The notes below the pieces were generated by a model that saw only the letters and a list, made by a program, of their open reading frames with translations, searched no databases and was not told where the DNA came from. From Halobaculum halobium (GTDB taxonomy: Archaea; Halobacteriota; Halobacteria; Halobacteriales; Haloferacaceae), in contig NZ_CP126158.1 in NCBI RefSeq assembly GCF_030127145.1, positions 1,240,001 to 1,304,000 of the forward strand: a stretch of 64,000 nt of DNA. The letters run 5' to 3'. How positions within the stretch are numbered: the first letter of the stretch is position 1; the number at the start of each line of letters is the position of its first letter. This document shows, in pieces, positions 17,066 through 50,888 of this stretch. Made by a program: the position numbers and the translations under genes.

Positions 17066-18154
17066 CTACAGCCGGTCGGCGATGGACTCGCCAGCGTCGA
17101 TCCCGTTCCACAGCGCCGCGGCGGCGCGGCCGCGGCCGGCGACCCAGTCGCCGGCGACGAACACTCCCGCCTCGCGGGCGGCAGCGACCGCGTCGGCGGT
17201 TCCGTCAGCGTCGGCGTCGGTTCCGCCGCCCTCGACGCCGTCCCGGTCGCCGTCGAGCCCCTCGTTCGGGAGCGCGTAGCGCCACCCCTGGTCGTCGACC
17301 CAGTCCGGGTCCGCGAGTCGATCGTCGCCGACGAGGTCGGCCGCCAGCGTCGCCGCTGTCTCTGCTGTCTCCTCCAGCGGGTCGTCGTAGCGCTCGGCGG
17401 ACCACTCGGGGCTCGGTTGTACGATCAGCAGGCTCTCCCCGTCGGGGACGTGTCCGCGTTTGCACTCCTCGCGCGAGAGCCACCCGATCTCGTGTGCCTT
17501 GTCCGTGTCGACGAGCCCGTACCACGGCACGTCGAGTTCGAACGGGTAGTGCAACACGAGCGTCCGGATCGTCCGGTACTTGGTCCCTTCGACGGCCGCA
17601 CGGAGATCTTCGAGCGCGCCGTCGGCGTCGGCTCCTTCCGTCGCGGCCAGCAGTTCGGCCGTCTGCGGCGCCGGGGGCGTGAGCACGAGCGCGTCGAACG
17701 GGCCGTGGTCGTCGCCGTCGGTGTCGGTCGCGGCCCACGTCCCCCCCGCGCGGTCGAGGGCGGCGACGCGGGTCGTCTTGCGTACCTCGGCGCCGCTCTC
17801 GGCGAGCAGGCGCTTGGCGAACTGGGTGATCCCGGCCTCCCAGGTGTACTTGTGGTCGTCGTCGCCGTCGCCGGGAGCGATCTCCCCGTCGGCGCCGAAC
17901 GTCCACACCGGTTCCGCGATGTCGACGAGGCCCTCCTCGCCGAGGTCGCGGATCAACTCGCCGGTCCGGTCGTCGGGGACCTTCACGTAGTTGGCGCCGT
18001 AGTCGTAGCGGCAGCCGTCGCGCCGCCGCGTCGCCGCCCGCCCGCCGACCCCGCGCGACTTCTCCAAGATCGTCACCTCGTGGTCAGTGTCGCGAAGCGC
18101 GTACGCCGCACCGGCGCCCGCGAGGCCGGCGCCGACGATACCGATGTGTGCCAT
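17066..18154 (-). CDS. FAD-dependent amine-oxidase-like oxidoreductase (renalase-like)
   Basis: A protein of 362 residues with an N-terminal dinucleotide-binding motif (IGIVGAGLAGAGAAYAL), then EKSRGVGGRAATRR, the FAD ribose- and pyrophosphate-contact motif of the amine oxidase/renalase group. The C-terminal GVFVAGDWVAGRG contacts the flavin. A low-complexity Gly/Asp/Ala insert (about 318-337) is likely a halophilic loop. The substrate is unknown. I chose the ATG at 18154 (MAHIGIVG) over 18166 because the strand should begin directly. It diverges from the HAD gene. Confidence 0.8.
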   Translation of the reverse strand: MAHIGIVGAGLAGAGAAYALRDTDHEVTILEKSRGVGGRAATRRRDGCRYDYGANYVKVPDDRTGELIRDLGEEGLVDIAEPVWTFGADGEIAPGDGDDDHKYTWEAGITQFAKRLLAESGAEVRKTTRVAALDRAGGTWAATDTDGDDHGPFDALVLTPPAPQTAELLAATEGADADGALEDLRAAVEGTKYRTIRTLVLHYPFELDVPWYGLVDTDKAHEIGWLSREECKRGHVPDGESLLIVQPSPEWSAERYDDPLEETAETAATLAADLVGDDRLADPDWVDDQGWRYALPNEGLDGDRDGVEGGGTDADADGTADAVAAAREAGVFVAGDWVAGRGRAAAALWNGIDAGESIADRL

Positions 18155-22692: not shown

Positions 22693-23892
22693 ATGAGCTA
22701 CAAGATCGGTCTCGTCGGGAAGCCGTCCGTCGGCAAGTCCAGCTTCTTCAACGCGGCGACGATGAACGACGTGCCCGAGGGCGCCTACCCGTTCACGACT
22801 ATCGATCCAAGCGTCGGCGAGGCGTACGTCGGGGTCGACTGCCCCGCCCCCGAGTTCGAGGAGACGTGCCAGCCCAACCACGGCTTCTGCCGCGACGACA
22901 CCCGATTCGTCCCCGTGAAGCTCGTCGACGTGGCCGGGCTCATCCCCGGCGCCCACGAGGGAAAGGGGCTGGGCAACCAGTTCCTCTCGGACCTCAACGA
23001 GGCGGACGTGCTCGTCCACGTCGTCGACTTCTCGGGCACGACCGACATCGAGGGCGAACCGACCGAGGGTCACGACCCGCGCGAGGACATCGACTTCCTG
23101 GAGAACGAACTCGACCAGTGGTACCTCGATATCCTCCAGAAGGGGATCCAGAAGTTCGAGTCGATGTATCAGGGCCCCAACCCCGGCGACGAGGTCGGCG
23201 TCGAGGAGGTGCTCGCCGAGCAGATGAGCGCGTTCCGCACCAACAAAGACGAGATCAAACAGACCGTCCTCGCGCTGGATCTGGCGCTGGATCCGGAGAC
23301 GTGGGACGACGAGGACCGCTTCGATCTGGCCCGCGAGATCCGCAAGCGCACGAAGCCGATGGTGATCGCGGCGAACAAGATGGACACACCCGCCGCGCGC
23401 GACAACTACGACGAGATCACGAGCGACCCCGAGTACGAGCACCTCACGGTCGTTCCCGCGAGCGCGCACGCGGAGGGGTCGCTGAAGAAGGCCGACGAGG
23501 CGGGCGTCGTCGACTACGCGCAGGGCGACGACGACTTCGCCATCGTCGGCGACGTGAGCGACGAGCAAGAGCGGGGGCTCGAGGCCATCCGGGAGTTCGT
23601 GACCGAGTACGGCGGCACCGGCGTCCAGCGCGTCATCGAGGCCGCGCTGTTCGAGGAACTCGACGCGAAGGCCGTCTTCCCCGGGAGCGCGAGCGGCAGT
23701 TGGAGCAAGGGGCCGTTCCGCGACTGCTTCGTCCTCCCCGGGTACGCGACCGCCGAGGATTTCGCGTACACGCTGCACTCGGATATCGGCGACGGCTTCC
23801 TCCACGGGATCGACTGCCGGAGCGGCCGCCAGGTCGGCGCCGATACCGTGCTTGAGCACCGCGACGTGGTCGAGGTCGTGACGACCGGATAG
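22693..23892 (+). CDS. ychF: Obg-family ATPase/GTPase YchF
   Basis: A 399-residue P-loop protein of the archaeal/eukaryotic YchF/OLA1 group: G1 LVGKPSVGKSSF, switch region AYPFTTIDPSVG, G3 DVAGLIPGAHEGKGLGNQFL, G4 AANKMD, and a C-terminal TGS domain (VFPGSASGS ... DIGDGFLHGIDCRSGR). YchF proteins bind ribosomes and hydrolyse ATP more readily than GTP. I chose the ATG at 22693 because MSYKIGLVGKPS starts the G domain directly; the upstream in-frame stretch is unlike the family. Confidence 0.92.
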   Translation: MSYKIGLVGKPSVGKSSFFNAATMNDVPEGAYPFTTIDPSVGEAYVGVDCPAPEFEETCQPNHGFCRDDTRFVPVKLVDVAGLIPGAHEGKGLGNQFLSDLNEADVLVHVVDFSGTTDIEGEPTEGHDPREDIDFLENELDQWYLDILQKGIQKFESMYQGPNPGDEVGVEEVLAEQMSAFRTNKDEIKQTVLALDLALDPETWDDEDRFDLAREIRKRTKPMVIAANKMDTPAARDNYDEITSDPEYEHLTVVPASAHAEGSLKKADEAGVVDYAQGDDDFAIVGDVSDEQERGLEAIREFVTEYGGTGVQRVIEAALFEELDAKAVFPGSASGSWSKGPFRDCFVLPGYATAEDFAYTLHSDIGDGFLHGIDCRSGRQVGADTVLEHRDVVEVVTTG

Positions 23893-26720: not shown

Positions 26721-27539
26721 ATGGCAGCAGATACCGATCCGGTCGGAGGAGACGCGTACGAGACTGTCGACGTCGATCGCGACGGCTACGTCGGCCGGAT
26801 CACCCTCGACCGACCGGAGGCGATGAACACGTTCAGCACCGAGTTGGCGGTCGACCTCGACGACGCGCTGCACGATCTCGACGAGCGCGACGACATCCGA
26901 GCGGTCGTCGTCGACGGAGCGGGCGACGCGTTCTCCGCGGGGATCGACGTCTCCGAGCACGGCGAGTACGACACGAAAGCCGAGTACGAGGCGTGGGTCG
27001 CGCGGATGGAGGACCCGTTCCACACGCTGGCGGAGATGGCCACACCGGTCATCGCGGCGGCGCACGGCCACGCGGCCGCGAACGGCCTCGGGCTGGTGGC
27101 GGCGTGCGACCTCGCTGTCGCCGCCGAGGGGACGATGTTCGGGGCGACCGCGCCGAAGGTCGGGCTGTTCTGCATGGGACCGTCGGTCCCGCTGATGGAG
27201 ACGCTCACGCGCAAGCGGTGTCTGGAGATGGTGCTCACGGGGGATCTGATCGACGCGGAGACGGCCCTGGAGTGGGGGATCGTCAACCGCGTCCGACCGC
27301 AGGGCGAACACGTCGAGGGAGCCGTCGAGCTCGCCGAGACCATCGCTTCGAAGAGCCCCGCAGCCGTGCAACTGGGCAAGCGCGCCTACTACGAGATGGA
27401 GGACATGCCCTACCACGAGGCGCTCGATTACTCCAACGAGCAGTTCGCCGGCCTGTGCACGACGGCGGACGCCAACGAGGGGATCGAGGCGTTCCTCTCG
27501 GGGGAGCCGCTCGCGGCCGACGAGTGGCCGGGCGAGTGA
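26721..27539 (+). CDS. Enoyl-CoA hydratase/isomerase family protein
   Basis: A 272-residue crotonase-fold protein. The oxyanion-hole segment GDAFSAGIDVSEH and HGHAAANGLGLVAACDLAVA fit the family. In this family catalytic glutamates normally follow about 110-145; KVGLFCMGPSVPL shows the usual loop but the two classic glutamates are not clear here, so hydratase activity is uncertain. It could be an enoyl-CoA isomerase, hydratase or related acyl-CoA enzyme. The ATG at 26721 is the first start after an AT-rich region. Confidence 0.75.
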   Translation: MAADTDPVGGDAYETVDVDRDGYVGRITLDRPEAMNTFSTELAVDLDDALHDLDERDDIRAVVVDGAGDAFSAGIDVSEHGEYDTKAEYEAWVARMEDPFHTLAEMATPVIAAAHGHAAANGLGLVAACDLAVAAEGTMFGATAPKVGLFCMGPSVPLMETLTRKRCLEMVLTGDLIDAETALEWGIVNRVRPQGEHVEGAVELAETIASKSPAAVQLGKRAYYEMEDMPYHEALDYSNEQFAGLCTTADANEGIEAFLSGEPLAADEWPGE

Positions 27540-27888
27540 GCGGGCTATCGCTCGCCGTCTCGGCGACGTGACAGTCCAGAAACCCCCGGAATCGGGGCCG
27601 CAAGCCGGTTCTACGGCCATCGACGGAGTACGCGGACGAAGGGGGCCCAGCGGGAGGTGTCGGAACGGTGGGCTCGGCACTCGCGACGCACAATTGATCC
27701 AGAGTGAGCGCGGGCAAACCGACGGTGGCATCGCAGCCCGTAATCCGAGCACCGCATAGAGGGTCGGAACCGACCTGTATCGTTCCTCTCGGCAGTGCGT
27801 GAGTCCGAGGACGCGTTCTGGACGCAGTCGTCGAAAACGTTCGTTTGGAAAACATATCATCATAACACTTCCCGTCGAATACGAGGGT
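27540..27888. other. Intergenic region before the heliorhodopsin gene
   Basis: No convincing gene is seen. The 3' part is AT-rich (AAAACATATCATCATAAC, 27848-27865), about 25-40 bases before the GTG at 27889, and probably holds the heliorhodopsin promoter. The rest is GC-rich without clear repeats. Confidence 0.5.
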
Positions 27889-28668
27889 GTGACTACGCCG
27901 GACTCGCAGTATCGACGGCTCCGCCAGTTCAATGCCGTGATGGCTGTCCTCCACTTCGTTCAGGGGGCACTGATGGTCTACCTGAGCACCACACGCAACT
28001 GGACCATCACCGTCACCGCACTCGAATTCAACGCCGACACCCAACGGCTCGCACCCGTCCTCGAACCGTGGACGACGATTCAACTGTCGTATCTCGTCGC
28101 CGGGTTCCTGCTCCTCTCGGCGCTCGCACATCTCCTCATCGCGACGGTGCTGTACGACTCCTACGTGGCGTATCTCAAACGTGGCATGAACCCGTACCGC
28201 TGGTACGAGTACTCGATCAGCGCGTCCGTGATGATCGTCGTCATCGCGATGCTCGCGGGCGTCTGGGACCTCGGGACCCTCGTGGCGCTGTTCTCGCTGG
28301 TCGCCGTGATGAACCTCATGGGCCTCATGATGGAAGTGCACAACCAGACCACCGAGGAGACCGATTGGACGTCCTACATCATCGGCTCCGTCGCGGGCCT
28401 TGTCCCCTGGGTCGTCATCGCCATCACCATCGTGGCCACCGTACTCGGGAGCGACGGCGGCGGGCCGCCGGACTTCGTGTTGCTAATCTACGTCAGCCTG
28501 TTCGTGTTCTTCAACCTGTTCGCGATCAATATGGTGCTGCAGTACCGCGAGACCTGGAAGTGGCAGGACTACCTCTTCGGCGAGAGGACCTACATCGTCC
28601 TCAGCCTGGTCGCGAAGTCCCTGCTGGCCTGGCAGGTGTTCTTCGGCGCGCTCAACGCCCCTGTCTAA
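27889..28668 (+). CDS. Heliorhodopsin
   Basis: A 259-residue protein from the GTG at 27889, with seven hydrophobic helices. Helix 3 carries YRWYEYSISASVM with Glu107, the counterion position of heliorhodopsins. Helix 7 carries SLVAKSLLAWQ with Lys243, the retinal-binding lysine (Lys241 in the reference 48C12). From this start the Glu number is the same and the Lys is two off, which supports the start; a GTG at 27799 would add 30 basic residues. The protein belongs to the photosensory-type family with inverted membrane topology, not to bacterio-, halo- or sensory rhodopsins. Its stop codon overlaps the left island repeat. Confidence 0.9.
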   Translation: MTTPDSQYRRLRQFNAVMAVLHFVQGALMVYLSTTRNWTITVTALEFNADTQRLAPVLEPWTTIQLSYLVAGFLLLSALAHLLIATVLYDSYVAYLKRGMNPYRWYEYSISASVMIVVIAMLAGVWDLGTLVALFSLVAVMNLMGLMMEVHNQTTEETDWTSYIIGSVAGLVPWVVIAITIVATVLGSDGGGPPDFVLLIYVSLFVFFNLFAINMVLQYRETWKWQDYLFGERTYIVLSLVAKSLLAWQVFFGALNAPV

Positions 28669-28698
28669 ACGGTCGGTAAGAGTTTGGCCTCGGCACTC
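28665..28698 (+). repeat. Left island boundary repeat (attL candidate)
   Basis: A 34-base sequence, ending CCTCGGCACTC, matches 50793-50826 at 30 of 34 positions in direct orientation. It overlaps the heliorhodopsin stop codon (28666-28668). Between the copies lies AT-richer DNA with a tyrosine recombinase gene, so the pair probably are the attachment-site halves of an integrated element. Confidence 0.75.
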
Positions 28699-28719
28699 GA
28701 ACCAGTAACTATTACCGAC
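28672..28719. promoter_or_regulatory. Inverted arms at the left island end
   Basis: GTCGGTAAGAGTT (28672-28684) is repeated inverted as AACTATTACCGAC (28707-28719) with one mismatch. The reversed copy is identical to the start of the right boundary (GTCGGTAATAGTT, 50800-50812). A related TTACCGAC recurs at 28904-28911. This spacing suits paired binding sites of a tyrosine recombinase, but that is inference. Confidence 0.4.
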
Positions 28720-28875
28720 TCACGAAACTATTTATAGAAGAGCACTCGCCCAATATCCAAATCGATAGACGGCGCTATGGTATTAGGCCACGCGCCCTAT
28801 GTTGGGGAACGCTCCACGGCTGCTCGCAACCATCCACGCTACCCAAACGAAGTAAACCGATTTGCGCGCTTTTTG
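28693..28875 (+). ncRNA. Candidate small RNA, copy 1 of a tandem promoter-hairpin unit
   Basis: A BRE/TATA promoter CGAAACTATTTATAG (28723-28737) is followed about 25 bases on by a hairpin: ATAG-AC-GGCGC (28765-28775) pairs with GCGCC-CTAT (28792-28800) around a 16-base loop. The transcript would begin at the hairpin and could end at GCTTTTT (28868-28874). The first 48 bases (28693-28740) match copy 2 with two mismatches. Stems are conserved but loops differ, as for a structured RNA family. No ORF of note is present. Confidence 0.5.
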
Positions 28876-28884
28876 GACACACAC

Positions 28885-29033
28885 GCACTCGAACCAGTAA
28901 ATATTACCGACTTACGAAACTATTTATAGAAGGAAATCCGATTCGCGCCTAAACCGATAGACGGCGCAGGGATAACTACTGAGATGCGCCCTATGTTGTG
29001 GAATCCTCATTTGATTCTCTCCCACATTTATTT
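28885..29033 (+). ncRNA. Candidate small RNA, copy 2 of the tandem promoter-hairpin unit
   Basis: The same promoter word (28915-28929) precedes an identical stem: ATAG-AC-GGCGC (28957-28967) with GCGCC-CTAT (28986-28994), around an unrelated 18-base loop. After the stem both copies continue ATGTTG-GGA-like. The likely end is in the T-rich stretch near 29027-29033, which is also the TATA box of the next gene. The RNA would be about 75-80 nt. Confidence 0.5.
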
Positions 29034-29056: not shown

Positions 29057-29629
29057 ATGGCCACTGCCGAAACGTTGCTTCTTAGTGGAGGTGTGAGTCT
29101 TGCTGTCAGCTTTCTCGTATCTGAGTATCAAGTGAGGAGACAATCCACGAAAGATGAAAAGCAAGAGGCGGACCAATGGTATCGAGAGTTGAACGAAGAA
29201 CTGAGCCGACTCAAACATTATTGTCAGAAGCAACTGACCACCTCTGATATCGGTTTTAAACAGGTAGCGGAAGAACACGAAGCAGTCTCAGACGAACTCG
29301 CCAGAATTGCAGGCCGGGCTCCAACTGGAGTCAGTATCGCGGCAGTCAGAGAAGTAGAATCCCTTTCTGGCAAATTATACTCTCAAGCAGAAAACATCGA
29401 GGCTTTCGATGCCGATAATCCCAGTGATGCACGAGAGTTCATGGAAGAAGCAGTCTCTGAGTTCAACACCCATGTCGGAGACACAGTAGACGGAAGTGAA
29501 TTCTCGTTTCTAGAGGAAATGGATGATTGGGAAACGGGGCGACATCTGTTCTCGAAAATGCTACTGAAGCTCACTCAGCAGGAGATAGACTCCCATAGGT
29601 CCCGACTGAGTGAATTCAGGCAAGAATAG
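29057..29629 (+). CDS. Island protein: N-terminal membrane helix plus helical domain
   Basis: A 190-residue protein. LLLSGGVSLAVSFLVSEYQV near the N-terminus is a single membrane anchor. The rest is largely alpha-helical and partly coiled coil, without recognised motif. A TATA-like ATTTATTT (29026-29033) lies 24-31 bases before the ATG, so the mRNA is probably leaderless. The lower GC and A/T-ended codons match the island. Function unknown. Confidence 0.65.
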   Translation: MATAETLLLSGGVSLAVSFLVSEYQVRRQSTKDEKQEADQWYRELNEELSRLKHYCQKQLTTSDIGFKQVAEEHEAVSDELARIAGRAPTGVSIAAVREVESLSGKLYSQAENIEAFDADNPSDAREFMEEAVSEFNTHVGDTVDGSEFSFLEEMDDWETGRHLFSKMLLKLTQQEIDSHRSRLSEFRQE

Positions 29630-35049: not shown

Positions 35050-35985
35050 ATGGGAGCCGAAGCCAATGCCTCGAAAATCTACGACAACAAACACGACGAG
35101 GTCACTTACTTCCTCACCCGGAAAGAGGCGACTGGGCGAAGCACGCGAACCCTCAACTCGTACAGTCGTATCCTCCGCGAGTTCTTCCACGACCAATTCC
35201 CTGACCTCGATCCCGGCGAGGTCGAAATACGCCACGTCGAAGACTACGTAATGGCGCTCACCGAACGCGGCGTCTCGCAGAACTCGAAAAAGAAGTACCT
35301 CGAAATTCTCTCCAGCTTCTACGGCTACACGATGAAGCGGCCACAGTTCGAGGACATCACGGGTAATCCCGCCGCAGTCGTAATGGAAGAAATTCCTCGC
35401 ATTCGTCCAGATCGACCGGACTGCGCGACGTGGGAGAACGCCTGCAAACTCATCAACGCGATTCCAGACCCGAGAGACAAAACCGTCGCCATCATCCTCG
35501 CTAAGACAGGAGCGCGTCTCCTCGAAGCTCTCTCAATCGAGAAGGACGACGTGGACCTCGAGAAGGGATTCATTCGACTCCGCGAGCGCAAGGGTGGCGG
35601 ACAGACCGTCGTCCCAATCGATGACGAGACGATCTACGCCATCAAACGCTACCAGTTCGTCAACTCCGACTCCGACTCTCCGTACCTATTCACGAGTACG
35701 CTCGGAGGACGACTCTCGAAAGAGCGGATTCGTCGGGAAGTGAAAGCCGCCGCCGACCGCGCCGGCGTCGCCCCCAAAGAAGAACGACGGTTCGAGAAGA
35801 AGTTCACTCCTCACACCTTCCGCACCGTGTTCACCACGCTAATGCGGAAGCAGGGAATGAAGCCGTACATTCTGAAATACATCCGTGGGGACGCCAAGAC
35901 CGAGACGATGGATATCTACACTCGCGTTGACCGAGACGAAGCGAAAGAAGAGTACCTGAACTGTATCAAGGAGATCGGGCTCTAG
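35050..35985 (+). CDS. Tyrosine recombinase (XerC/D-like integrase)
   Basis: A 311-residue site-specific recombinase. An N-terminal SAM-like core-binding domain (about 15-100) precedes the catalytic domain with Arg156 (TGARLLEA), Lys181 (RERKGGG), His255 and Arg258 (PHTFRTVF) and the nucleophile Tyr290 (DIYTRV). The usual second His/Trp site reads RGDAKTETM. This is the only integrase in the island and most likely the enzyme that moved it between the 34-base boundary repeats. Its gene follows the coiled-coil partner by 1 base. Confidence 0.9.
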   Translation: MGAEANASKIYDNKHDEVTYFLTRKEATGRSTRTLNSYSRILREFFHDQFPDLDPGEVEIRHVEDYVMALTERGVSQNSKKKYLEILSSFYGYTMKRPQFEDITGNPAAVVMEEIPRIRPDRPDCATWENACKLINAIPDPRDKTVAIILAKTGARLLEALSIEKDDVDLEKGFIRLRERKGGGQTVVPIDDETIYAIKRYQFVNSDSDSPYLFTSTLGGRLSKERIRREVKAAADRAGVAPKEERRFEKKFTPHTFRTVFTTLMRKQGMKPYILKYIRGDAKTETMDIYTRVDRDEAKEEYLNCIKEIGL

Positions 35986-38223: not shown

Positions 38224-39291
38224 TCACGTATCAATTCCCTCGATAACGTGGCGGACAATAACTCCTGAATCCCGTTGGATGAAGGCTAGATCGTTCTCAG
38301 GAGCGGTTTGTAATTCGACAGCACCAGACATTCCTTCAACTACCGTCTCAAATGTAGGTCCGTACTCATTGCATAAGCTGGGACCCTCCACCTTAGCTGC
38401 GCCCAACCACCCCTCAGTAGTCGCTGCACCACTTACTACCTCCAACCAAAACTCGCCGTTCTTGATGATGATTGGATAGGTCTTCTGACCACCGACGAGT
38501 TCCCTCGCTTCAATTATTTTCTCCAGAACGCTCTGCGTGGTTCGGATTGTTGCTGACGCTGGTGCCGTTTTACTCCCTGTAGAAACGAGCAGTCTATTAC
38601 TGCGATCAAACTGGTCGTACAGCTCCGCGATCTCTTTTTCAGGATATTCAACTGAGAACTCGTTATCGTGGATCCACTCATAAACCTGCATCAGTGACAG
38701 ACGGCGCATCTCAGTCACAGGAAGGTCATACAGGCGATCCTCCACAGACCGCTCGCTATGGATCGTGCCTCTCTGAGATGTTGACATTGACCTGATCAAT
38801 TCTTCATGGAGAATTTCCGCCGTATCTCTACCATTATCTACGTCAGAAAGACAATCGGGGTCGATACCATGTGAGTTTGCAATCAACGCTGCCCGTCGTG
38901 GTCGAAATGCGGTCTGTGGAGTAGAGATTCCTACCGTTCGCTTGAGATCGTCTTTGATGTGAACCTCAGACGCAAAGTCGCTCTCTGGCTCACACATGAA
39001 ATCAAGATAGAGCAATTTCGACGTTGCCAGATTGAGATAGTCGTGCAACTCATCAACGTCAATGATAGCAAGCGTCGGGCTGTCGCTACGGAGTTCAATC
39101 GAGTGTAGATACTGGTCGGTGATCGTGCAGTACGTCGACACCTCTCCCGTCGGCTGCGTAATCGCTAATTCGTCATCTGTTATCCGAAGGAAAAGCTGGT
39201 CGTACTGGCGTTTCAGCGTAACCCTCGAAAGAAGACGATTGAACTGATGAAGAGACCCAGTTAGCGATGCAGCGATGATCGTAGATGACAT
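38224..39291 (-). CDS. Possible sliding-clamp-like protein, third gene of the GNAT/ParB operon
   Basis: A 355-residue protein. The N-terminal region (LLSRVTLKRQYDQLFLRITD, DELAITQPTGEVSTYCTITD, then LAIIDVDELHDYLNLATS) has the strand-helix pattern of a PCNA-type clamp half. The middle and C-terminal parts are unrecognised. The resemblance is by eye only. Its ATG overlaps the ParB-like gene stop by 1 base, so it is translationally coupled. Confidence 0.4.
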   Translation of the reverse strand: MSSTIIAASLTGSLHQFNRLLSRVTLKRQYDQLFLRITDDELAITQPTGEVSTYCTITDQYLHSIELRSDSPTLAIIDVDELHDYLNLATSKLLYLDFMCEPESDFASEVHIKDDLKRTVGISTPQTAFRPRRAALIANSHGIDPDCLSDVDNGRDTAEILHEELIRSMSTSQRGTIHSERSVEDRLYDLPVTEMRRLSLMQVYEWIHDNEFSVEYPEKEIAELYDQFDRSNRLLVSTGSKTAPASATIRTTQSVLEKIIEARELVGGQKTYPIIIKNGEFWLEVVSGAATTEGWLGAAKVEGPSLCNEYGPTFETVVEGMSGAVELQTAPENDLAFIQRDSGVIVRHVIEGIDT

Positions 39292-40397
39292 TAGTTCAAG
39301 TTCATCATCCTGAGCTGACTCTCGGAGAAGTCCCCCCGCTTCATGCTGATATCATCCTCACGGAGCCAGAAGCGAACTAATGACTCGGTGACTCCATAGC
39401 GGATAGCCAGTTCAAGCGGGGCGATGTCGCGCTCGTTGTACAATTCGTCGAGCAAGTCAGCATCAGGACGACGAGCAGCGATACTCCCGGCGACAGAATC
39501 GTCGTCTTCTGAGAGGTTTGCAAGCCCATTCCTCTCCATCAGGTAAACGAAGATTGGTGCCTCACCAGCTTTGACCGGCTCTCCTGAATGGTCATCATAT
39601 GCCTGACTAAGTTTCTGTAATCCTACGGTCCAGCTTTCCTCAGTAGTGATCTCGGGTTCGGTAACATCGTAGATCGTCTCTACAGTTCGTAGCTCATTCA
39701 GGAGATTCGCCTTCTCGATTGAATTCCAGGGAACCTCGTTGGTCGGTGAACTAGACTCGCGCTCGATTCTCTCTTTCAGGTCTGTCCAAGCACCATATAC
39801 GGACTTCTTGTCCCCGTCGAGATCCTTGACTAGCTCTTTGGCAAAGTCAGAGATGTCTGAGGAGTAGTTCTCCCCTCCCTCTGCAGCCTCCCAGACCTTC
39901 CGCGCATAGTAGAATTTCGAGCCAGACCACCCAATTCGATCTCCTACGAGTTCCCGAGTGGTCTTACCCTCTGCATCTGCTAGGTCTAGCTGAGGCGAAT
40001 TCTCAGACAGATCTGCAAAGTCGACCTTCTCGCTTTGCTCGATCCGCTTCTCCATCATCGGCGCAACCAGTTCCTTGTACTGGAGGGCGATCCGCATCTT
40101 CTGCGAAAACGTCTCCTCGCGGTCGTCATTGTGCCGTAGGATCGCCAACTGCTCCATCTCGGTGCTGCCATAGTCTCGCGTATCGACCGGGATCGAATCC
40201 CAATCAAGCGCCGTCGCAGCTTTCCATCGACGGACCCCGTCCAGAATCAACCCATCCTGGTTGACGATAATGGGATTTTCAAGCTCCTCATCGATGCTCT
40301 GAATGAACCGACTGCTTGGCTCATCTTGCTTGAATAGTTCCTCGCTGAAGGGGTGCGGTTCCAAATCCGAAACCATCATAGTAGCCCCATTTGACAT
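39291..40397 (-). CDS. ParB-like nuclease-domain protein
   Basis: A 368-residue protein. The N-terminal 100 residues form a ParB/Srx-type domain: SRFIQSIDEELENPIIVNQD, then LILDGVRRWKAATAL with the DGxxRWxA motif that binds or hydrolyses nucleotide in ParB-like enzymes. The rest is helical, with an HTH-like segment near the end (IAPLELAIRYGVTESLVRFW). In Dpd clusters a ParB-like protein (DpdB) assists DNA base exchange, so a link to the TGT genes at 42739-46565 is possible but not shown. Confidence 0.7.
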   Translation of the reverse strand: MSNGATMMVSDLEPHPFSEELFKQDEPSSRFIQSIDEELENPIIVNQDGLILDGVRRWKAATALDWDSIPVDTRDYGSTEMEQLAILRHNDDREETFSQKMRIALQYKELVAPMMEKRIEQSEKVDFADLSENSPQLDLADAEGKTTRELVGDRIGWSGSKFYYARKVWEAAEGGENYSSDISDFAKELVKDLDGDKKSVYGAWTDLKERIERESSSPTNEVPWNSIEKANLLNELRTVETIYDVTEPEITTEESWTVGLQKLSQAYDDHSGEPVKAGEAPIFVYLMERNGLANLSEDDDSVAGSIAARRPDADLLDELYNERDIAPLELAIRYGVTESLVRFWLREDDISMKRGDFSESQLRMMNLN

Positions 40398-40400
40398 ATT

Positions 40401-40910
40401 TCAGTCCTCCTGGAGCGTCTCGGGGATCGGTCGCTTCATCATGAGCATCTTCCGTCCGTTATCAGTGGTTCTTGACGAGTCTGGAGCGAATCCAATCGAG
40501 CGCCAATACGCTGACGCAGAGTCGTTTGCAGCAGCTTCTACCTTCATCGACCGCTTGCCGTGCTGAGAAGCGAACTTGATGGATTCAACAACTAATCGGG
40601 TTGCCAACCCCTGGCGACGGAAATCTGGATGCGTCGCAAGAAGCCGGATCTGCGCTTCGCCTTCATCCAGAATCCGAGATTCACACCAGACCATAACAGC
40701 CGAGACAACAATATCTCCCTCAGAGATGTAGAACAGCTGCCTCTCTGTCTGATCAACTGCTCTTTCTAGATTGTCTCGGTGCGTGAACGAATGAAGCTCA
40801 TTGCTGATCCGGTTGGAATTGAAGAGCCCCTGAACCTCGTCAATCTCCTCTTCTGTCGTAGCCGTAGCTATCTTGTCCGTAGTTTTGTTTCGCGTGTTGC
40901 TTGTTCTCAT
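40401..40910 (-). CDS. GNAT-family acetyltransferase
   Basis: A 169-residue GNAT protein with motif A IRLLATHPDFRRQGLATRLV (acetyl-CoA pyrophosphate loop, about 104-123) and the C-terminal ANDSASAYWRSIGF strand. It is the first of three tightly packed genes (GNAT, ParB-like, clamp-like). The ATG at 40910 is preferred to 41039, which would add a basic N-terminus reading through a structured leader. The substrate is unknown. Confidence 0.75.
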   Translation of the reverse strand: MRTSNTRNKTTDKIATATTEEEIDEVQGLFNSNRISNELHSFTHRDNLERAVDQTERQLFYISEGDIVVSAVMVWCESRILDEGEAQIRLLATHPDFRRQGLATRLVVESIKFASQHGKRSMKVEAAANDSASAYWRSIGFAPDSSRTTDNGRKMLMMKRPIPETLQED

Positions 40911-40945
40911 GGATCTCCCTCGTGAGCAATTCCCGGAGATGCCTC

Positions 40946-41040
40946 TACGGAGCCCGGCTCTCGGAAGCGCCAGAGCTCGCAGTCTGCGCTCCGTATTGCT
41001 CAGTTTGTTGGGTCGATTCGTAGCTCTCGACCCGTCCAAC
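40946..41040 (-). promoter_or_regulatory. Structured 5' leader of the GNAT/ParB operon
   Basis: Between the divergent promoter and the GNAT start, the DNA can fold into two strong elements. TACGGAGC (40946-40953) pairs with GCTCCGTA (40988-40995), enclosing GCTCT/AGAGC (40957-40961 with 40972-40976). GGGTCGA (41010-41016) pairs with TCGACCC (41027-41033), extendable by GTTG/CAAC. An AT-rich TTATACTTATT (minus strand, about 41060-41070) could be the promoter. This could be a regulatory leader RNA, or a small RNA. Confidence 0.45.
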
Positions 41041-41150
41041 TCTATGGTTGCGCGTGTAATAAGTATAACGACGTAATAGAATATGAAACGGTATGGGCGA
41101 AAATACGCAATTCCAATAGCTTCATTAGAATCACCGTAATAAAATAGCGT

Positions 41151-41696
41151 ATGTCATCTGATTGCGAGAGAGAACGTGGTATCCTCAGCACCAAAGACCG
41201 CAACTACCTAAGGAGCGGTGCTGGAATCGCACCGAAAAGCTCCGCAGAACGAGTTGCCCGATCCCGGATCCGAAAGCGCCTCCACAGCGCCTATCTGGAT
41301 TTCAGACTTCTCGTCGACGAATTAGAAGAACGCGACCGGAGAAGCGTGTTCGAGAATCTGCCCGATGATCGAGACCTCCACCGGGGAATCATCGCTGCGC
41401 TCGAATTCACATATCTCGCTCTGAAAGAACAGAACCTCGATTTCAAAGACTACCTGGAGGAGGCGGTCACAAACGCGGAGGAGAAGCTAGCTCGAAAAGA
41501 ATCTGAAAACCGCGTCGAGGTAGATGTAGAATTCAACGTCGAAACGAGACTCGTCCTCGATGAAACGCGAGATATCAGTGAGTACAGCGACCAAGAGATT
41601 GGTGAATTACTGATGAACGGCGAGATTGATGGTGAACTTGCAGCAAGGCTCTTGGAACAGAATCACAGCGACGGAGGCAGCAGAGATATCGCCTAA
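41151..41696 (+). CDS. Haloarchaeal helical protein of unknown function
   Basis: A 181-residue protein. GILSTKDRNYLRSGAGIAPK and RSRIRKRLHSAYLDFRLLVD are a signature I recall from many haloarchaeal plasmid and island proteins (GILSPADREYLR type), whose function is unknown. Largely helical and charged. The ATG at 41151 follows an AT-rich promoter (TAATAAAATA, 41131-41140). Confidence 0.65.
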   Translation: MSSDCERERGILSTKDRNYLRSGAGIAPKSSAERVARSRIRKRLHSAYLDFRLLVDELEERDRRSVFENLPDDRDLHRGIIAALEFTYLALKEQNLDFKDYLEEAVTNAEEKLARKESENRVEVDVEFNVETRLVLDETRDISEYSDQEIGELLMNGEIDGELAARLLEQNHSDGGSRDIA

Positions 41697-41871
41697 TCAC
41701 CGCTGAACTCGAGGTCAGTACTTCTGGTGAAAATTTACCGTAGGTTTTCATCCGCCACCTTCTCACGTAGTCCTCAAAAACACTCGATAGAATTGATTCA
41801 GGCAAATAGAATCACAGTCTCTCCACCGAACATAGGGACCTCCGTACAGTCTTCGACTCCCTTAGCCTGAA

Positions 41872-42138
41872 TCAGTCCTCAGACTCTCCCTCCTCGTAGC
41901 CAGCTTTGTGCTCATCTCGTACTGTTCTCGAAGCTCGCCTTGAGACCTTAGCGAGATTCTTGTTGAATCGACGGATAGAGAGATAGATGTACAGCAGGAG
42001 GAGATACGGCCAGATGAGCAACCCAACGACAGAATAGATAGCGAGTTTGAGGAACCGGTACTCTATCGGGCCGATATGGACGCTACCTATCTGGATGCCA
42101 CGCGACTCGTCTTCCTGGTCGCTGTCTGAATCAGTCAT
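41872..42138 (-). CDS. Single-span membrane protein
   Basis: An 88-residue protein with one strong hydrophobic segment (LAIYSVVGLLIWPYLLLLYI, about 32-51) between an acidic N-terminus and a basic then acidic C-terminus. A perfect 20-base palindrome lies 22 bases upstream of the ATG. Function unknown. Confidence 0.6.
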   Translation of the reverse strand: MTDSDSDQEDESRGIQIGSVHIGPIEYRFLKLAIYSVVGLLIWPYLLLLYIYLSIRRFNKNLAKVSRRASRTVRDEHKAGYEEGESED

Positions 42139-42160
42139 TGTAATCTCCGGCCAACGCCGT

Positions 42161-42180
42161 CGCTGCTAGACCTAGCAGCG
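42161..42180. promoter_or_regulatory. Perfect palindrome upstream of the membrane protein gene
   Basis: CGCTGCTAG (42161-42169) and CTAGCAGCG (42172-42180) are exact inverted copies separated by AC. The site ends the region 22-42 bases upstream of the ATG at 42138. It is a good candidate operator. Confidence 0.5.
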
Positions 42181-42425
42181 CCAGTAGGACCTATTCAGAG
42201 CGACGCCGGGAAAGAATATCAAATTACTTACTTAATATCCAGAATCCGGCCTCTGGATGTCCCCGGAAGAACAGTACTCAGCGTACAGTCTCCCGCCTGC
42301 TGACCGAGTCCACCGCTCAGAGGATGACTGGCATTCAGACTCGCGAGCGATGCGTTAGCGTCTGAGCCCTGTTACGCCCCATGCCATCCGAGAGAAGTAG
42401 AGGTGATGGCGAAGCGAGCAACTCG

Positions 42426-42688
42426 CTACAATAATTCAGAGATCGTCTCGGTCAAGTCCGCTAGGATATCTTCGGCTACCTCCAAACTCCGTCAACCCGT
42501 GATAACCACCTTGCCCGTAGCGAAGAGTGGGATAACGATATCCACGTCTTCTGGTCATTGAATGAGCCTTGGGAACTGCTCAGGCACCTACTTGGTCTTT
42601 CAGGACCTAACCCAATAGCGAGAGCGCTCAGATTGAGGTTTTGTCCCAATTCAGCCGGACAGACATTCCGGAGATTAGAGCGTATTTC
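42426..42688 (-). pseudogene. Decayed TATA-box-binding protein (TBP) gene, C-terminal repeat
   Basis: On the minus strand, broken frames spell the second TBP repeat: ELGQNLNLSALAIGLG, then in another frame VPEQFPRLIQ, a stop, PEDVDIVIPLFATGKVVITG, another stop, and RSLEVAEDILADLTETISEL. Intact haloarchaeal TBPs have LGQxLNLNAIAIGLG, YEPEQFPGLVYRL, LLFGSGKLVITG and a final helix in the same order. At least one frameshift and two stops are present, and the first repeat is missing. Extra TBP copies are common in haloarchaeal plasmids; this one is dead. Confidence 0.75.
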
Positions 42689-42738
42689 GGGACCGTAGAA
42701 TTAGGGGTTTGCTACGCTACAGACTGTCGAGGTCGCAA

Positions 42739-44727
42739 CTACGCCTCGGGTGTTTCTTCTGAGGACAGGACAGCCCGGATGCTAACAGCCAGCTCATCCA
42801 GGTTTGAGTTTCGGAAGTGTTCCGTAACTCGACGAACTGCTGGATCAGACGGTAACATTGTCCCGACTCCTGCTTGATCGAACGCCTCCTCGATCGTAGT
42901 TCTGTATGTCTTCGTCGTCACATACGCGAAGACAGCTCTGTATTGATCTTTGTGTGCTTCGAGGAATTCGACGAGGCGGTTTTGTACGCGATTGACTTGG
43001 TCGGTGTCCGCATCCGTCAGGAAGTAGTCATACGACAGCACTGCGTCGTGGGTTTCGAACTCTTGTGGAACGGGCCCGTATAATCCAGAGACAGAGACTT
43101 TTTCTACCTCATTCCAGAGGCCAGCTTCGCTGAGACGATTGGCGACTTCTAAGTGGGTCTTCGAATCACTGTACGGCTTCGTGTCGCTACAAGAGACTAT
43201 CAGACAGACAGGCTTCTCTGACGAGGGCTCAAATTGTTCGCGTCGAATATCGAAGTCATCGGGAGTGTGTTCGAGCGAGGTCTTTTGAGATGACTCGACG
43301 GCTAGTGATCCATCATCGTTGAACACGGTCTGTCGTAGCTCAGCGCCGTTAGAAGGAGCGTTTTCCGCAATGTCGAATCCTTCTGGAACCACCGAACGAA
43401 GTTCGGGCCATCTGCTCGCAGCGCGAGCGAGTCCGGCACCAAGATCCGCGTTTTGTCTAGCACGCTCTGTAAGGAGCGTATGCAGCGACCCGTCCATGAT
43501 GGCGTCTCGGACTTCGTTCACCTCCCGCTGGAACACGTGGAAGTTGTGATGTGCTATCAGCGCATAGAAATCGCTCTTCATGTATGACCGCGTCTCGCCG
43601 TCTCGCTTGATCTCAACCGGCTTGTATGAACGATCTGCCGCGAAGACCTCCTTCATATCGGCGACGCCTACGTCAGTCAATTCTTCGCATGCAGGGCAAT
43701 CACAGTTCCACTCGTCGGCTGTGAGTTCCGTCGCGTTAGTTTTCTTTCCGTCTTTGGGGTTGATGAAGTCCTGATGCTGTGCTGCCTGTACGTACGTGGA
43801 CGAGTCATAGCTGTCTACCCCGAGAGCAGCGATGAGAGGGGCTAATTGCCCTCCAATACCGAAGACGTGCAAAGCGAATTCGTCACGTCGGTTCGGCGGG
43901 ATCGCCATCGTAGCTCCCTGAACGATATCAACGAGCATTTCGATCTTTCCAGACCGTAGTGGGACAAGCGAGCCAACTGCGAACCCATCGAGTGAATCCT
44001 CGTAGTTAGTCCGCTCAAGCAGTTTTGAGACGTAGTATCCGACCTCGTCATGGCTGTGCCCATGGAGCGCGGCGTAAACCGTTGGATCCCAGTCTGCGTA
44101 CTTCTCATCTTCTTCTAAGAGCCTGAGACATTCGACGGCGCTGTCGATGCTCTTCTCAACCCGCTCATATTTTTCATCATCGGCGAGTCCAGGTGGGATC
44201 GGATAGTCAAGCGTGGCAAGCATGTCCGCTCCATAGTCGTACTGTAAATCAAGGATAGACCGAGGGTTAGTGTAGATTCCCCAGTCATTCTCTTCTCCCC
44301 CTTCCTCGGGATGTTCTCCGAACGTTCGGGAGTTCATGAGTTTGAACCCTCCCGAGTCGACGAACAGCGGTTTCTCGAACGCTGGTGGTTTTGGGTTGTC
44401 TTTTGGAGATTCGTGGTCGGTGAACCACTCGTGAAGGCCGCTCGCCTCAGTTCGCCATGTTTCGACGTGGTGTGGGCTGAGATTGAAATCCAGGAAGCTC
44501 ATCGCTTGGAACATCGCGCCCTGGAACTCGTCGTCGCCGAACAATCGGTTTCGGAGTCGGCTCCAGATGCCACCAGAAACGGGCGTCGGCCCGCCCATGA
44601 GGTTGAGGACTGGAAAGAACGCCGGAGTATCGACAGCACCGCCTAGGGGGGCCTCAGGGGTATACAGCCTACCGGTTCTGGCAGCTCCGACATCTGACTT
44701 CTGGAGCGATTCGAAACCACGTGTCAT
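42739..44727 (-). CDS. TGT-like base-exchange enzyme fused to DUF5591 (DpdA/ArcS-like)
   Basis: A 662-residue protein. Residues 1-420 are a tRNA-guanine-transglycosylase-like barrel: FVDSGGFKL (Asp124, general base), LGVDSYDSSTY (Asp308, nucleophile position) and a zinc site CDCPAC (342, 344, 347) with His393. The C-terminal part (about 500-620, LIVSCSDTKPYSDS ... VSGLYGPVPQEFE) matches DUF5591, the domain of archaeosine synthase ArcS. No PUA domain is seen. It would swap guanine for a 7-deazaguanine and perhaps convert its nitrile, in DNA (as DpdA) or RNA. The ATG at 44727 fits a TATA at about 44756-44762. Confidence 0.75.
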   Translation of the reverse strand: MTRGFESLQKSDVGAARTGRLYTPEAPLGGAVDTPAFFPVLNLMGGPTPVSGGIWSRLRNRLFGDDEFQGAMFQAMSFLDFNLSPHHVETWRTEASGLHEWFTDHESPKDNPKPPAFEKPLFVDSGGFKLMNSRTFGEHPEEGGEENDWGIYTNPRSILDLQYDYGADMLATLDYPIPPGLADDEKYERVEKSIDSAVECLRLLEEDEKYADWDPTVYAALHGHSHDEVGYYVSKLLERTNYEDSLDGFAVGSLVPLRSGKIEMLVDIVQGATMAIPPNRRDEFALHVFGIGGQLAPLIAALGVDSYDSSTYVQAAQHQDFINPKDGKKTNATELTADEWNCDCPACEELTDVGVADMKEVFAADRSYKPVEIKRDGETRSYMKSDFYALIAHHNFHVFQREVNEVRDAIMDGSLHTLLTERARQNADLGAGLARAASRWPELRSVVPEGFDIAENAPSNGAELRQTVFNDDGSLAVESSQKTSLEHTPDDFDIRREQFEPSSEKPVCLIVSCSDTKPYSDSKTHLEVANRLSEAGLWNEVEKVSVSGLYGPVPQEFETHDAVLSYDYFLTDADTDQVNRVQNRLVEFLEAHKDQYRAVFAYVTTKTYRTTIEEAFDQAGVGTMLPSDPAVRRVTEHFRNSNLDELAVSIRAVLSSEETPEA

Positions 44728-44749
44728 TGGACATCCCATCGTACTCGGG

Positions 44750-44886
44750 TACAGGGTTAAACTTGACCAGTGACAGCCACAATATTGGAATATTGATATA
44801 ATAGACCTCGATCAGGTCAGCGGTTGTAGAGCAGGACTGTCTCTATCCACGCAACGCTTTTGTCTTGGAGGATCGACGGAAGCGTA
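44750..44886. promoter_or_regulatory. Divergent promoter region of the TGT module
   Basis: The region holds GTTTAAC (44756-44762, minus strand), about 30 bases before the TGT gene start at 44727. An AATATTGGAATATTG repeat with ATATAATAG lies nearby (44782-44806). GGAGG (about 44867-44871) precedes the plus-strand ATG at 44887 and could be its ribosome-binding site. One divergent region probably controls both arms of the module. Confidence 0.45.
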
Positions 44887-45351
44887 ATGACCGAGTTGCT
44901 GATCCAGGGTTGTTCGCAACGCAAAAACGACCCCAATAAGCCGGTTCCACCGGAGCAGCTCTACGACGGGTACTTCTTCAGAATCTTAGAGGCAAACCGA
45001 TCAGAATCTGGGAGGAACATAGAAGTCGTAGTTCTCTCTGCGAAACACGGTTTCGTTACTCAGGAAGACCGGATCACAAAGTACGATACACAAATGACTC
45101 AGAACCGTGCCACTGAACTTAATTCAGATATAGTTCAATCGTTTAATGAGTACGTTCGTGATTCTGATTTTTCCGACGTGTGGGTGAACGTCGGTCAGCC
45201 GTATCTCAGGGCGCTCGATGGTATCGAGTCAGGTATTCAAGCAGAATTCCACTACCTACAGGGTAGGCTGGGTGAACGTGGACATCATCTCAAACGTCTC
45301 TTACAGGGAGACCACGAGACCGTCAAAGACGAACTCTCCCACATAGATTGA
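44887..45351 (+). CDS. DUF6884-like protein
   Basis: A 154-residue protein. LLIQGCSQRKNDPNKPVPPE with Cys9, then VVVLSAKHGFVTQEDRITKY, is the pattern (CSxxK ... LSAKYG) of DUF6884 and of the related ArcS/YaaA-like DUF5591 group. It may process a 7-deazaguanine base or bind nucleic acid. The ATG at 44887 follows GGAGG. Its TGA overlaps the ATG of the next TGT gene (TGATG at 45349-45353), so they are coupled. Confidence 0.65.
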   Translation: MTELLIQGCSQRKNDPNKPVPPEQLYDGYFFRILEANRSESGRNIEVVVLSAKHGFVTQEDRITKYDTQMTQNRATELNSDIVQSFNEYVRDSDFSDVWVNVGQPYLRALDGIESGIQAEFHYLQGRLGERGHHLKRLLQGDHETVKDELSHID

Positions 45352-46565
45352 TGACCAGTTTCGAAACATCCGCGCGAGTTGGTGACGCAAGAAGTGGAAA
45401 ACTCCACTGCCGAGACACAGTAGTAGAGACACCACACTTGTTTCCAGTAATAAATTTCTACTGTGGGGGACTCGCGCGTACTCACTTTGGCGGAGGTGTA
45501 TTTCGAACAGTCAAAGAATTCCTCTCAAACGAAGTTCCTGCGGCCAACGGAACAGATTATAGCGAATATTTCAGAGGTGTCATGACATCAGTTGCATCAC
45601 TGACTGATTTCGGATTGAGTAGAGAGCGATACCTCTCGTACCTCGAGACACCAGTCAAGTCCCGTCCGGAGTTCGCCGAATTCGATGGGGCGCTGTTCGT
45701 CGATTCGGGAGGCTACAAACTACTAAATGAGGGGTCGCTTAGTGGTACAAATTTTTCAATCGAGACGAGCCAGAAACTCATCCATGGGATACAACGAGCA
45801 TTTGGCGCGGACATCGCTGTCAATCTCGACCTGCCGTTCGAGGAAAGTGATGTGTATCGTGACCGCGTCAGCAAAACCGAAGCCACGGCTTCCTTCGCAG
45901 CCGAATTCGTGAACATGGATGCTGAAGGGTCAAGGCGCTACTTGACCGTTCATGGGTACTCAAAGGCGATGCTCGACCGGTTCTTTGACACAGTAGCACG
46001 GACACTCCCTGGGCCTATCGATCAGTTTTATGATGGAATCGCATTCGGTGGCTTAGTCCCGAAAAAAGACGATTTGAATGGGCTGATTAACGCCGTGTCT
46101 AGCTTAAAAACGGTTCTCGCAGAACGGAATCTGTCACATCTACCGATCCACGTTTTAGGAATCTCGGGACGTGCGATGCCGTTATTGATTGCCCTGGGCG
46201 TGGACACATTCGATTCCTCGACGTACCTCCATTCTGCGATCAACGGGAAGTACAGTACATCTCTATTTACTAGCACGAACGTGGCGGAAGCTGATTTCGA
46301 TATCTGTGACTGCCCAGTATGTACTTCTCCTGCACTCCGTCAACAAATGCGAGGTGACGCGGAGTACCAGAAGGACATCTTGGGTCCAGTTGCAGTACAC
46401 AATCTAATACTTCAACAACAATTTGTCAAACGGCTCCGCCGCTCAATAGCTGAAGGGAACCGTGAACAGCTACGAACGTTTCTTGAAAACGCGTACCAGG
46501 ACCGCCCGCAAAGTAGGAAGTTCGCGTATCGCGTGATCAACCAGACGCTGGGGTCGTACTTCTGA
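45351..46565 (+). CDS. Second TGT-like base-exchange enzyme (DpdA-like)
   Basis: A 404-residue protein with the same TGT-like core as the 42739 gene but without DUF5591. It has FVDSGGYKL (Asp118), LGVDTFDSSTY (Asp288), a zinc site CDCPVC (319, 321, 324) and His350. The two differ enough to suggest separate roles or a heterodimer, as in eukaryotic TGT. The DUF6884-like gene just upstream may supply the missing domain in trans. I use the ATG at 45351 rather than the TTG at 45348. Its stop overlaps the GHKL ATPase start. Confidence 0.75.
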   Translation: MTSFETSARVGDARSGKLHCRDTVVETPHLFPVINFYCGGLARTHFGGGVFRTVKEFLSNEVPAANGTDYSEYFRGVMTSVASLTDFGLSRERYLSYLETPVKSRPEFAEFDGALFVDSGGYKLLNEGSLSGTNFSIETSQKLIHGIQRAFGADIAVNLDLPFEESDVYRDRVSKTEATASFAAEFVNMDAEGSRRYLTVHGYSKAMLDRFFDTVARTLPGPIDQFYDGIAFGGLVPKKDDLNGLINAVSSLKTVLAERNLSHLPIHVLGISGRAMPLLIALGVDTFDSSTYLHSAINGKYSTSLFTSTNVAEADFDICDCPVCTSPALRQQMRGDAEYQKDILGPVAVHNLILQQQFVKRLRRSIAEGNREQLRTFLENAYQDRPQSRKFAYRVINQTLGSYF

Positions 46566-48103: not shown

Positions 48104-48184
48104 CATCGTCACAACTTCGGCGGGAGAGATTTGGGCGTCGTGTAACACGAGTGTTTATGTAGATTCCATCGCGGGATAATTGCA

Positions 48185-50792: not shown

Positions 50793-50826
50793 CTAAAGAG
50801 TCGGTAATAGTTCGGCCTCGGCACTC
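50793..50826 (+). repeat. Right island boundary repeat (attR candidate)
   Basis: A direct copy of 28665-28698 (30 of 34 identical). AT-rich island sequence ends here and GC-rich core starts immediately to the right. Read on the minus strand, both copies end in the same frame with SAEA-K/E-LLPT and a stop, so integration preserved the 3' end of whatever lies there. Confidence 0.75.
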
Positions 50827-50888
50827 ATAGGGCTCGTCGTCGCACCGGAGCCACCCGGGCTCGGAGCGGTCGCCTCGTCATCGGCCAT
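50793..50888 (-). CDS. Possible 31-residue ORF whose 3' end is the integration site
   Basis: An ATG at 50888 opens a 31-residue frame (MADDEATAPSPGGSGATTSP, then MSAEAELLPTL) ending inside the right boundary repeat. The left repeat keeps the same last residues. The Ser/Gly/Pro-rich composition gives no function. The element may have integrated into the 3' end of this small gene, as integrases often do in tRNA genes; equally the ORF may not be real. Confidence 0.3.
   Translation of the reverse strand: MADDEATAPSPGGSGATTSPMSAEAELLPTL

Follow-up and report, generated by a model that had tools for sequence, protein, structure and literature searches.

A heliorhodopsin gene, probably acquired laterally, at an integration hotspot behind the sR-tMet guide-RNA gene of Halobacteria

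The window analysed here, a 64,000-nucleotide stretch of Halobaculum halobium DNA, contains a heliorhodopsin (HeR) gene at 27889-28668 on the plus strand. The combined evidence makes it quite probable that this is a true heliorhodopsin, likely a sensor or regulator, which was laterally acquired within Halobacteria and has persisted at a hotspot of integration on the 3′ side of the gene for the guide RNA sR-tMet. The protein itself is ordinary, and the notable part is its genomic setting.

The gene encodes 259 residues from a GTG start and is a genuine heliorhodopsin. Its product matches the Pfam profile PF18761 (Heliorhodopsin) over 242/242 profile positions (1.2e-98, 329.7 bits, cut-off 26.7) as well as the NCBIfam equivalog NF038020 (5.7e-108, 360.1 bits, cut-off 100), and a sequence search recovers the solved Thermoplasmatales heliorhodopsin 6is6 at 2e-86. 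E107 is opposite E107 of 48C12 in the phmmer alignment and K243, judged from the block offsets of that alignment, opposite K241. The two residues which the initial annotation derived from the GTG start are present at the numbers it gave; H22, H81, R104, E107, S111, E149, S239 and K243 are invariant in all 67 aligned HeR rows. The heliorhodopsin motif, as described in the available text of PMC9601134, comprises a helix-7 retinal Lys with a Ser four positions earlier and a helix-3 Glu counter-ion, and the window protein conforms to it with K243, S239, E107 and S111; its third motif position is V118, where that source gives L. The GTG start is supported by an ATG at the homologous place in Halolamina pelagica (locus L033), and a start at 27940, proposed by the codon-usage gene caller from which the reading frames of the neighbouring genes were taken, was rejected as wrong.

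An AlphaFold2 model of the protein (pLDDT 90.0, pTM 0.85) superposes on 6is6 with a TM score of 0.92 and an rmsd of 1.2, whereas the best structure outside the family gives 0.65 and 8.3. The model is thus nearest to the solved heliorhodopsins, the type-1 topology raised initially as a counter-case was not recovered, and profiles, sequence match and structure agree on what had been put forward as a firm call. Residues 37-65 form the first-loop hairpin that is a typical heliorhodopsin trait, and the loop charges, with six K/R on the N-terminal side versus two opposite, lean weakly towards a cytoplasmic N terminus. Family, fold, hairpin, Glu counter-ion and Schiff-base lysine are common to TaHeR (PDB 6is6, 7u55; 56% identity in the structure alignment) and 48C12 (6su3, 6uh3; 38%); unlike these, the window protein is haloarchaeal and has no partner gene. 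By homology, it would be an inverted seven-helix protein with retinal on K243 and E107 as counter-ion. A haloarchaeal HeR as such is already known, since the Halorhabdus tiamatea protein, according to the accessible part of the report, has been expressed and forms a pigment with a maximum at 536 nm (PMC7807009). The window HeR and its Halorhabdus salina counterpart share 72-73% identity, and Halorhabdus-type HeRs are the sister group of the window's HeR group (90/89), most of them not located near sR-tMet.

Heliorhodopsins show a scattered distribution across archaea and bacteria. Congruent with the expectation that they are rarer among haloarchaea than pump and sensory rhodopsins, PF18761 was found in 41/391 Halobacteria genomes (19/86 genera), compared to 280/391 genomes (69/86 genera) for type-1 rhodopsins (PF01036). 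The retinal-forming family PF15461 is present in 243/391 genomes, a list that includes 30 of the 41 HeR genomes and from which the other 11 are absent. The window genome has a single PF18761 match, the gene at 27889-28668, along with three type-1 rhodopsins and one PF15461 protein, a Blh-type enzyme that would supply the HeR with retinal. On haloarchaeal plasmids and phages no HeR like that of the window was found; HeR genes are carried by a 10.5-kb Lactococcus petauri plasmid (NZ_CP141705.1) and a 180-kb Chloroflexota plasmid (CP069395.1). Decayed forms were also encountered: one gene has an in-frame TAG (G354; L118, the Halorubrum kocurii locus), another is split into two separate pieces (G041; L122), and a fragment (G268:C9:18545-18787) lies 3.9 kb from sR-tMet.

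Adjacent to the HeR gene, the GC content drops from about 0.67-0.70 to 0.43-0.57 over approximately 28.7-51 kb of the window, and 34-bp direct repeats, 88% identical, bound this low-GC region at 28665-28698 and 50793-50826, confirming the mobile island noticed at the outset. Each repeat holds an exact copy of a 13-bp core, GGCCTCGGCACTC, at 28686-28698 (attL, on the HeR side, 17 bp past the HeR stop) and at 50814-50826 (attR, on the sRNA side, at the 3′ end of sR-tMet); the element spans 28699-50826, or 22,128 bp core to core, and the HeR-side repeat touches the HeR stop codon. In the element-borne halves the core is flanked by arms AGTCGGTAATAGTT and AACTATTACCGACT, with four matches in the window against 0.14 expected, the AACTATTACCGACT arm at 28707-28720 (+) having its inverted partner at 50799-50812. 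The element has the hallmarks of a tyrosine-recombinase insertion: it encodes a tyrosine integrase (35050-35985, +; PF00589, 2.4e-23), a direct att repeat closes each end, and a relative has the empty site. The proposed adjacency of the integration site and HeR therefore stands, but the site is more precisely the 3′ end of sR-tMet, and HeR is outside the element.

The att region at 28693-28740 is repeated with 96% identity at 28885-28932, 192 bp inside the island, perhaps as the trace of an earlier insertion. The cargo at 39291-50674 resembles a module for defence or DNA modification, with a weak ParB_N match (39291-40379, −), a second TGT with DUF5591 (42739-44727, −), a DUF6884/DpdC-like protein (44887-45351, +), a DpdA-like TGT (45351-46565, +), an HSP90-like ATPase (46565-48103, +) and a GmrSD-type restriction-like protein (48185-50674, +). 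A viral origin of the island is unsupported, as viral contigs have no exact attP match and phage integrases are all less than 60% identical. A Natrinema salinisoli plasmid carries an integrase 60% identical to that of the element; the core, at up to one mismatch, was not found within 12 kb of this gene, and no episomal attP was found.

Rfam places sR-tMet at 50814-50886 on the minus strand (RF02163, 68.5 bits, cut-off 50, model positions 1-72 of 72), and the att core consequently forms the 3′ terminus of a gene for a C/D-box guide RNA, a gene left complete after the insertion. Downstream of HeR, a conserved minus-strand peptide end had suggested a small antisense protein gene, a reading dropped on the strength of this assignment. 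The fold of sR-tMet alone gave no signal over shuffles (z 1.17), as can be expected for a C/D-box RNA. A match was obtained in 50/50 genomes asked, 45 of them above the cut-off, Haloferax volcanii as control also has sR-tMet, and a spermidine-synthase-like membrane protein gene (51000-52640, +) is its constant chromosomal neighbour in the genus. In haloarchaea sR-tMet is the Cm34 guide RNA for elongator tRNA-Met (RF02163), and it is listed in the tRNA-methylation table in the accessible part of PMC4033218; the window copy, a full-length match, would have the same methylation-guide role. Three genomes (G017, G124 and G209) have two matches each, and in G017 both copies are above the cut-off, 18.6 kb apart and with integrases near, perhaps reflecting duplication of the target through insertion.

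The arrangement resembles that of archaeal tyrosine-integrase elements in tRNA genes, which, in the accessible text of PMC8371274, are bounded by direct att repeats whose core coincides with the 3′ end of a gene for a small stable RNA, the target being kept whole. Their targets are tRNA genes, whereas that of the window element is a C/D-box guide sRNA gene, and the same text contains no mention of sRNA, snoRNA or non-coding RNA. The portion of PMC6563490 available to us names tRNA genes, protein genes and intergenic regions as archaeal integrase targets, and a target of the sRNA-gene kind is absent from the searched text of PMC7911831, PMC10264941 and PMC12596717. In the literature that we found, with subscription papers largely outside its coverage, sR-tMet (RF02163; PMC4033218, seen in part) is not described as an integration site, nor is any other C/D-box sRNA. 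If the reading holds, C/D-box guide-RNA genes would join the archaeal integrase targets, and mobile-element traffic would be linked with a tRNA-modification guide.

The synteny check of Halobacteria that the initial annotation had proposed reveals HeR at this site well beyond the window. HeR and sR-tMet share a contig in 31 of the 41 HeR genomes, and among these testable genomes HeR is within 30 kb of sR-tMet in 18, with 0.57 expected at random; it is within 1 kb in six and farther than 30 kb in 13. All 18 near copies are on the 3′ side of the sRNA and they are drawn from 10/14 genera, although the counts are not independent because the genomes are related. As controls, type-1 rhodopsins are within 30 kb in 0/21 cases and PF15461 in 1/24, both among the matches listed on sR-tMet contigs. 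HeR direction relative to sR-tMet is evenly divided, nine the same and nine opposite: 'same' comprises all hotspot members of a 22-row HeR clade, and 'opposite' the window, Halolamina, the g40 group (including Halovivax asiaticus), g62 and Halorubellus. These data lend good support to the 3′ side of sR-tMet being an integration hotspot at which HeR recurs across genera. The core was flagged near HeR in 12/60 loci, and a one-mismatch core in L133 was dropped, its context not being sR-tMet, which is located 7 kb away in that genome. A family of about 240 residues (cluster c26) recurs at the hotspot near HeR in L112, L044 and L125, and a HeR-less congener (L186) has, beside sR-tMet, a protein that resembles it at the N terminus.

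Lateral acquisition of the window HeR within Halobacteria is supported by its conflict with a core protein, the YchF/Obg-like GTPase with a TGS domain encoded at 22693-23892, which served as control. In a tree of 67 HeRs, from which exact duplicates and the two-piece L122 gene were left out, the window protein forms a group (99/97) together with the HeRs of L113, L115, H. pelagica and two Haloarchaeobius, separate from the congener G139, whose HeR belongs to the 22-row clade, which spans several families (100/99). Between the window and G139, HeR identity is 65.5% versus 93.2% for the GTPase, and the relation is reversed for G042 of another genus (90.0% versus 72.1%), G191 (89.5% versus 71.1%), G204 (86.8% versus 73.2%) and G214 (87.1% versus 73.4%). 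Pairs such as G315-G069 (91.6% versus 65.4%) indicate that HeR transfer is general among haloarchaea. In hotspot pairs of different genera with HeR at the same site and in the same direction, HeR identity is likewise far above that of the GTPase, at 86.3 versus 66.9 (G003-G002), 91.0 versus 71.6 (G307-G053) and 90.0 versus 72.1 (G000-G042). Over 30 genomes, the two identity matrices show a weak rank correlation of 0.147, reached by 3/1000 permutations. Moreover, only 2/11 genomes of the window's genus have HeR; sR-tMet immediately precedes the spermidine-synthase-like gene in all nine congeners without it, and the filling on the 3′ side varies from genome to genome, while the HeR of G139 is at the sR-tMet site in the direction opposite to that of the window. 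The suspicion that HeR was itself acquired is hence upheld, not by adjacency to the island but by the tree and identity conflict and by the nine of 11 congeners that have no HeR. We found no earlier report of HeR transfer in haloarchaea, in a literature with subscription papers largely outside coverage, and the available text of PMC8612252 mentions neither 'Halobacteria' nor 'horizontal'.

HeR could alternatively have been located 3′ of sR-tMet already in the haloarchaeal ancestor and mostly lost since, the tree conflicts then representing homologous replacement between relatives. In several genomes, and across several families, sR-tMet has long had the control GTPase gene as a neighbour, which makes an ancestral HeR position there possible for some lineages; HeR is within the GTPase-sR-tMet interval in the g40 group and others, and the weak correlation of HeR with control identity persists. 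On the other hand, the two orientations are split by HeR clade, one genus has both kinds of HeR at the same site at 65.5% identity with neither in most of its genomes, and a Halostella HeR is located between two cores. On balance we regard such an ancestral origin as unlikely, while granting it some weight, and favour lateral acquisition at the hotspot.

The integrase family of the element points to the same chromosomal site. Homologues of the protein encoded at 35050-35985 (E<=1e-30, 391 genomes) amount to 48 hits in 46 genomes, of which 41 share a contig with sR-tMet. Of the 41, 34 are within 50 kb and all but one of them, 33, on the 3′ side, the exception being in G017 with its two sR-tMet copies, and the remaining seven are more distant. 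The core, with zero or one mismatch, is present in the short loci of 13/30 integrase hits. In Halapricum (L044), sR-tMet and HeR enclose an integrase belonging to the same cluster, which is also their arrangement in the window. In Halostella pelagica (L125, 9342-10493), HeR alone is found between direct-orientation cores at 9342 and 10481, 1.14 kb apart; this is the only locus with cores on both sides of HeR, and it includes another core with arms resembling those of the window element and a gene 95% identical to window 29057-29629. In L120 (5517-9394), the sR-tMet core and a further core enclose three genes, one of them a receiver-type regulator by its start, and no integrase; HeR follows. 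An extended reading would be that the sR-tMet 3′ end is a Halobacteria-wide capture platform, at which sR-tMet-specific integrases, partly working in trans, insert, stack and exchange short core-flanked gene cassettes, with HeR as a recurrent single-gene cassette. This would be akin to an integron-like array, in which many short cassettes are each bounded by att sites and the integrase works in trans. We consider this generalisation rather doubtful; if true, it would make HeR a mobile light sensor. The L125 locus of the haloarchaeon Halostella also has a match to the Rfam L4-Archaeoglobi ribosomal leader (17442-17541, +; 70.2 bits, cut-off 34.5).

In other clades HeR acts with partners, and the accessible parts of PMC9529153, PMC9769723 and PMC11109279 describe glutamine synthetase, photolyase or ABC-transporter operon partners, so that a fixed partner encoded beside the haloarchaeal gene might be anticipated. 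No gene family recurs beside HeR in 60 loci beyond close relatives, the commonest within eight genes on either side being a large ABC-ATPase family (14/60), followed by YchF-like GTPase and CspA (8 each). The window gene is moreover isolated, as the preceding gene ends 350 bp upstream and the next chromosomal gene 3′ is 22 kb off, which makes it monocistronic by position; the upstream gene, of the enoyl-CoA hydratase family (26721-27539, +), has its closest form in 3/11 congeners and is therefore not an obvious partner. A conserved HeR operon was thus rejected and a fixed neighbouring partner is improbable. The early statement that partner genes are mostly unknown is accurate for the haloarchaea across these 60 loci and not for other clades, where partners have been published. 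That no partner gene is fixed beside it speaks for haloarchaeal HeR acting on a target encoded elsewhere, or on a general process. From its sequence, the window protein is predicted to bind retinal and sense light without pumping; it would most likely be a light sensor or regulator with its own promoter, for which the stretch common to Halolamina HeR genes at 27804-27888 (+) is a candidate, homology starting from about 27804 (L113) or 27848 (L033).

The order of events at the site was obtained from an empty-site comparison. When the flanks of the island are joined at the core, they align with Halolamina pelagica L033 in one unbroken 934-column alignment, 87% identical, spanning about 40 bp upstream of HeR, HeR, a spacer of less than 20 bp and sR-tMet. 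In that locus Rfam places sR-tMet at 8791-8863, with the HeR end less than 20 bp away, tail to tail; for a second relative (L113), the alignment runs through HeR, then an unaligned spacer, then sR-tMet. As the match is continuous without the island, HeR adjoined sR-tMet before the insertion. HeR is therefore outside the element and older than the insertion, which separated it from sR-tMet by 22 kb. That HeR instead arrived as cargo of the 22-kb island, in the same event, is very improbable and was rejected: HeR touches the att repeat, but it is outside the core-to-core interval, the island-free flanks align continuously with H. pelagica, its composition (GC 0.615, third positions 0.888) is unlike the 0.43-0.57 of the island, and no second element boundary with the same core was found upstream of HeR within the oriented 20-kb locus.

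With HeR as an older resident of the hotspot, a history in three steps can be proposed. An ancestor would first have gained HeR directly 3′ of sR-tMet, the two genes tail to tail in the manner still seen in H. pelagica; location and core-gene conflict are observed, and the manner of arrival is inferred. The 22-kb element, with its sR-tMet-linked tyrosine integrase family, would then have recombined at the 13-bp core in the sRNA 3′ end, leaving sR-tMet whole at one end of the insertion and an att copy next to HeR at the other end. The insertion itself follows from the empty-site comparison, and the element's own integrase is the presumed agent. More generally, the recurrence of HeR 3′ of sR-tMet in many genera, with an orientation fixed per clade, suggests that HeR genes move by integration into sR-tMet, travelling as cargo or remnants of such insertions. 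One route of HeR spread thereby becomes testable, since the chromosomal site and the integrase family can be named and a relative with an empty site is available.

Farther along the window, the deoxyhypusine synthase gene (53008-54066, −) belongs to a protein that exists in two very different haloarchaeal forms, some genomes having a copy 64-90% identical to that of the window and others only one at 30-36%.
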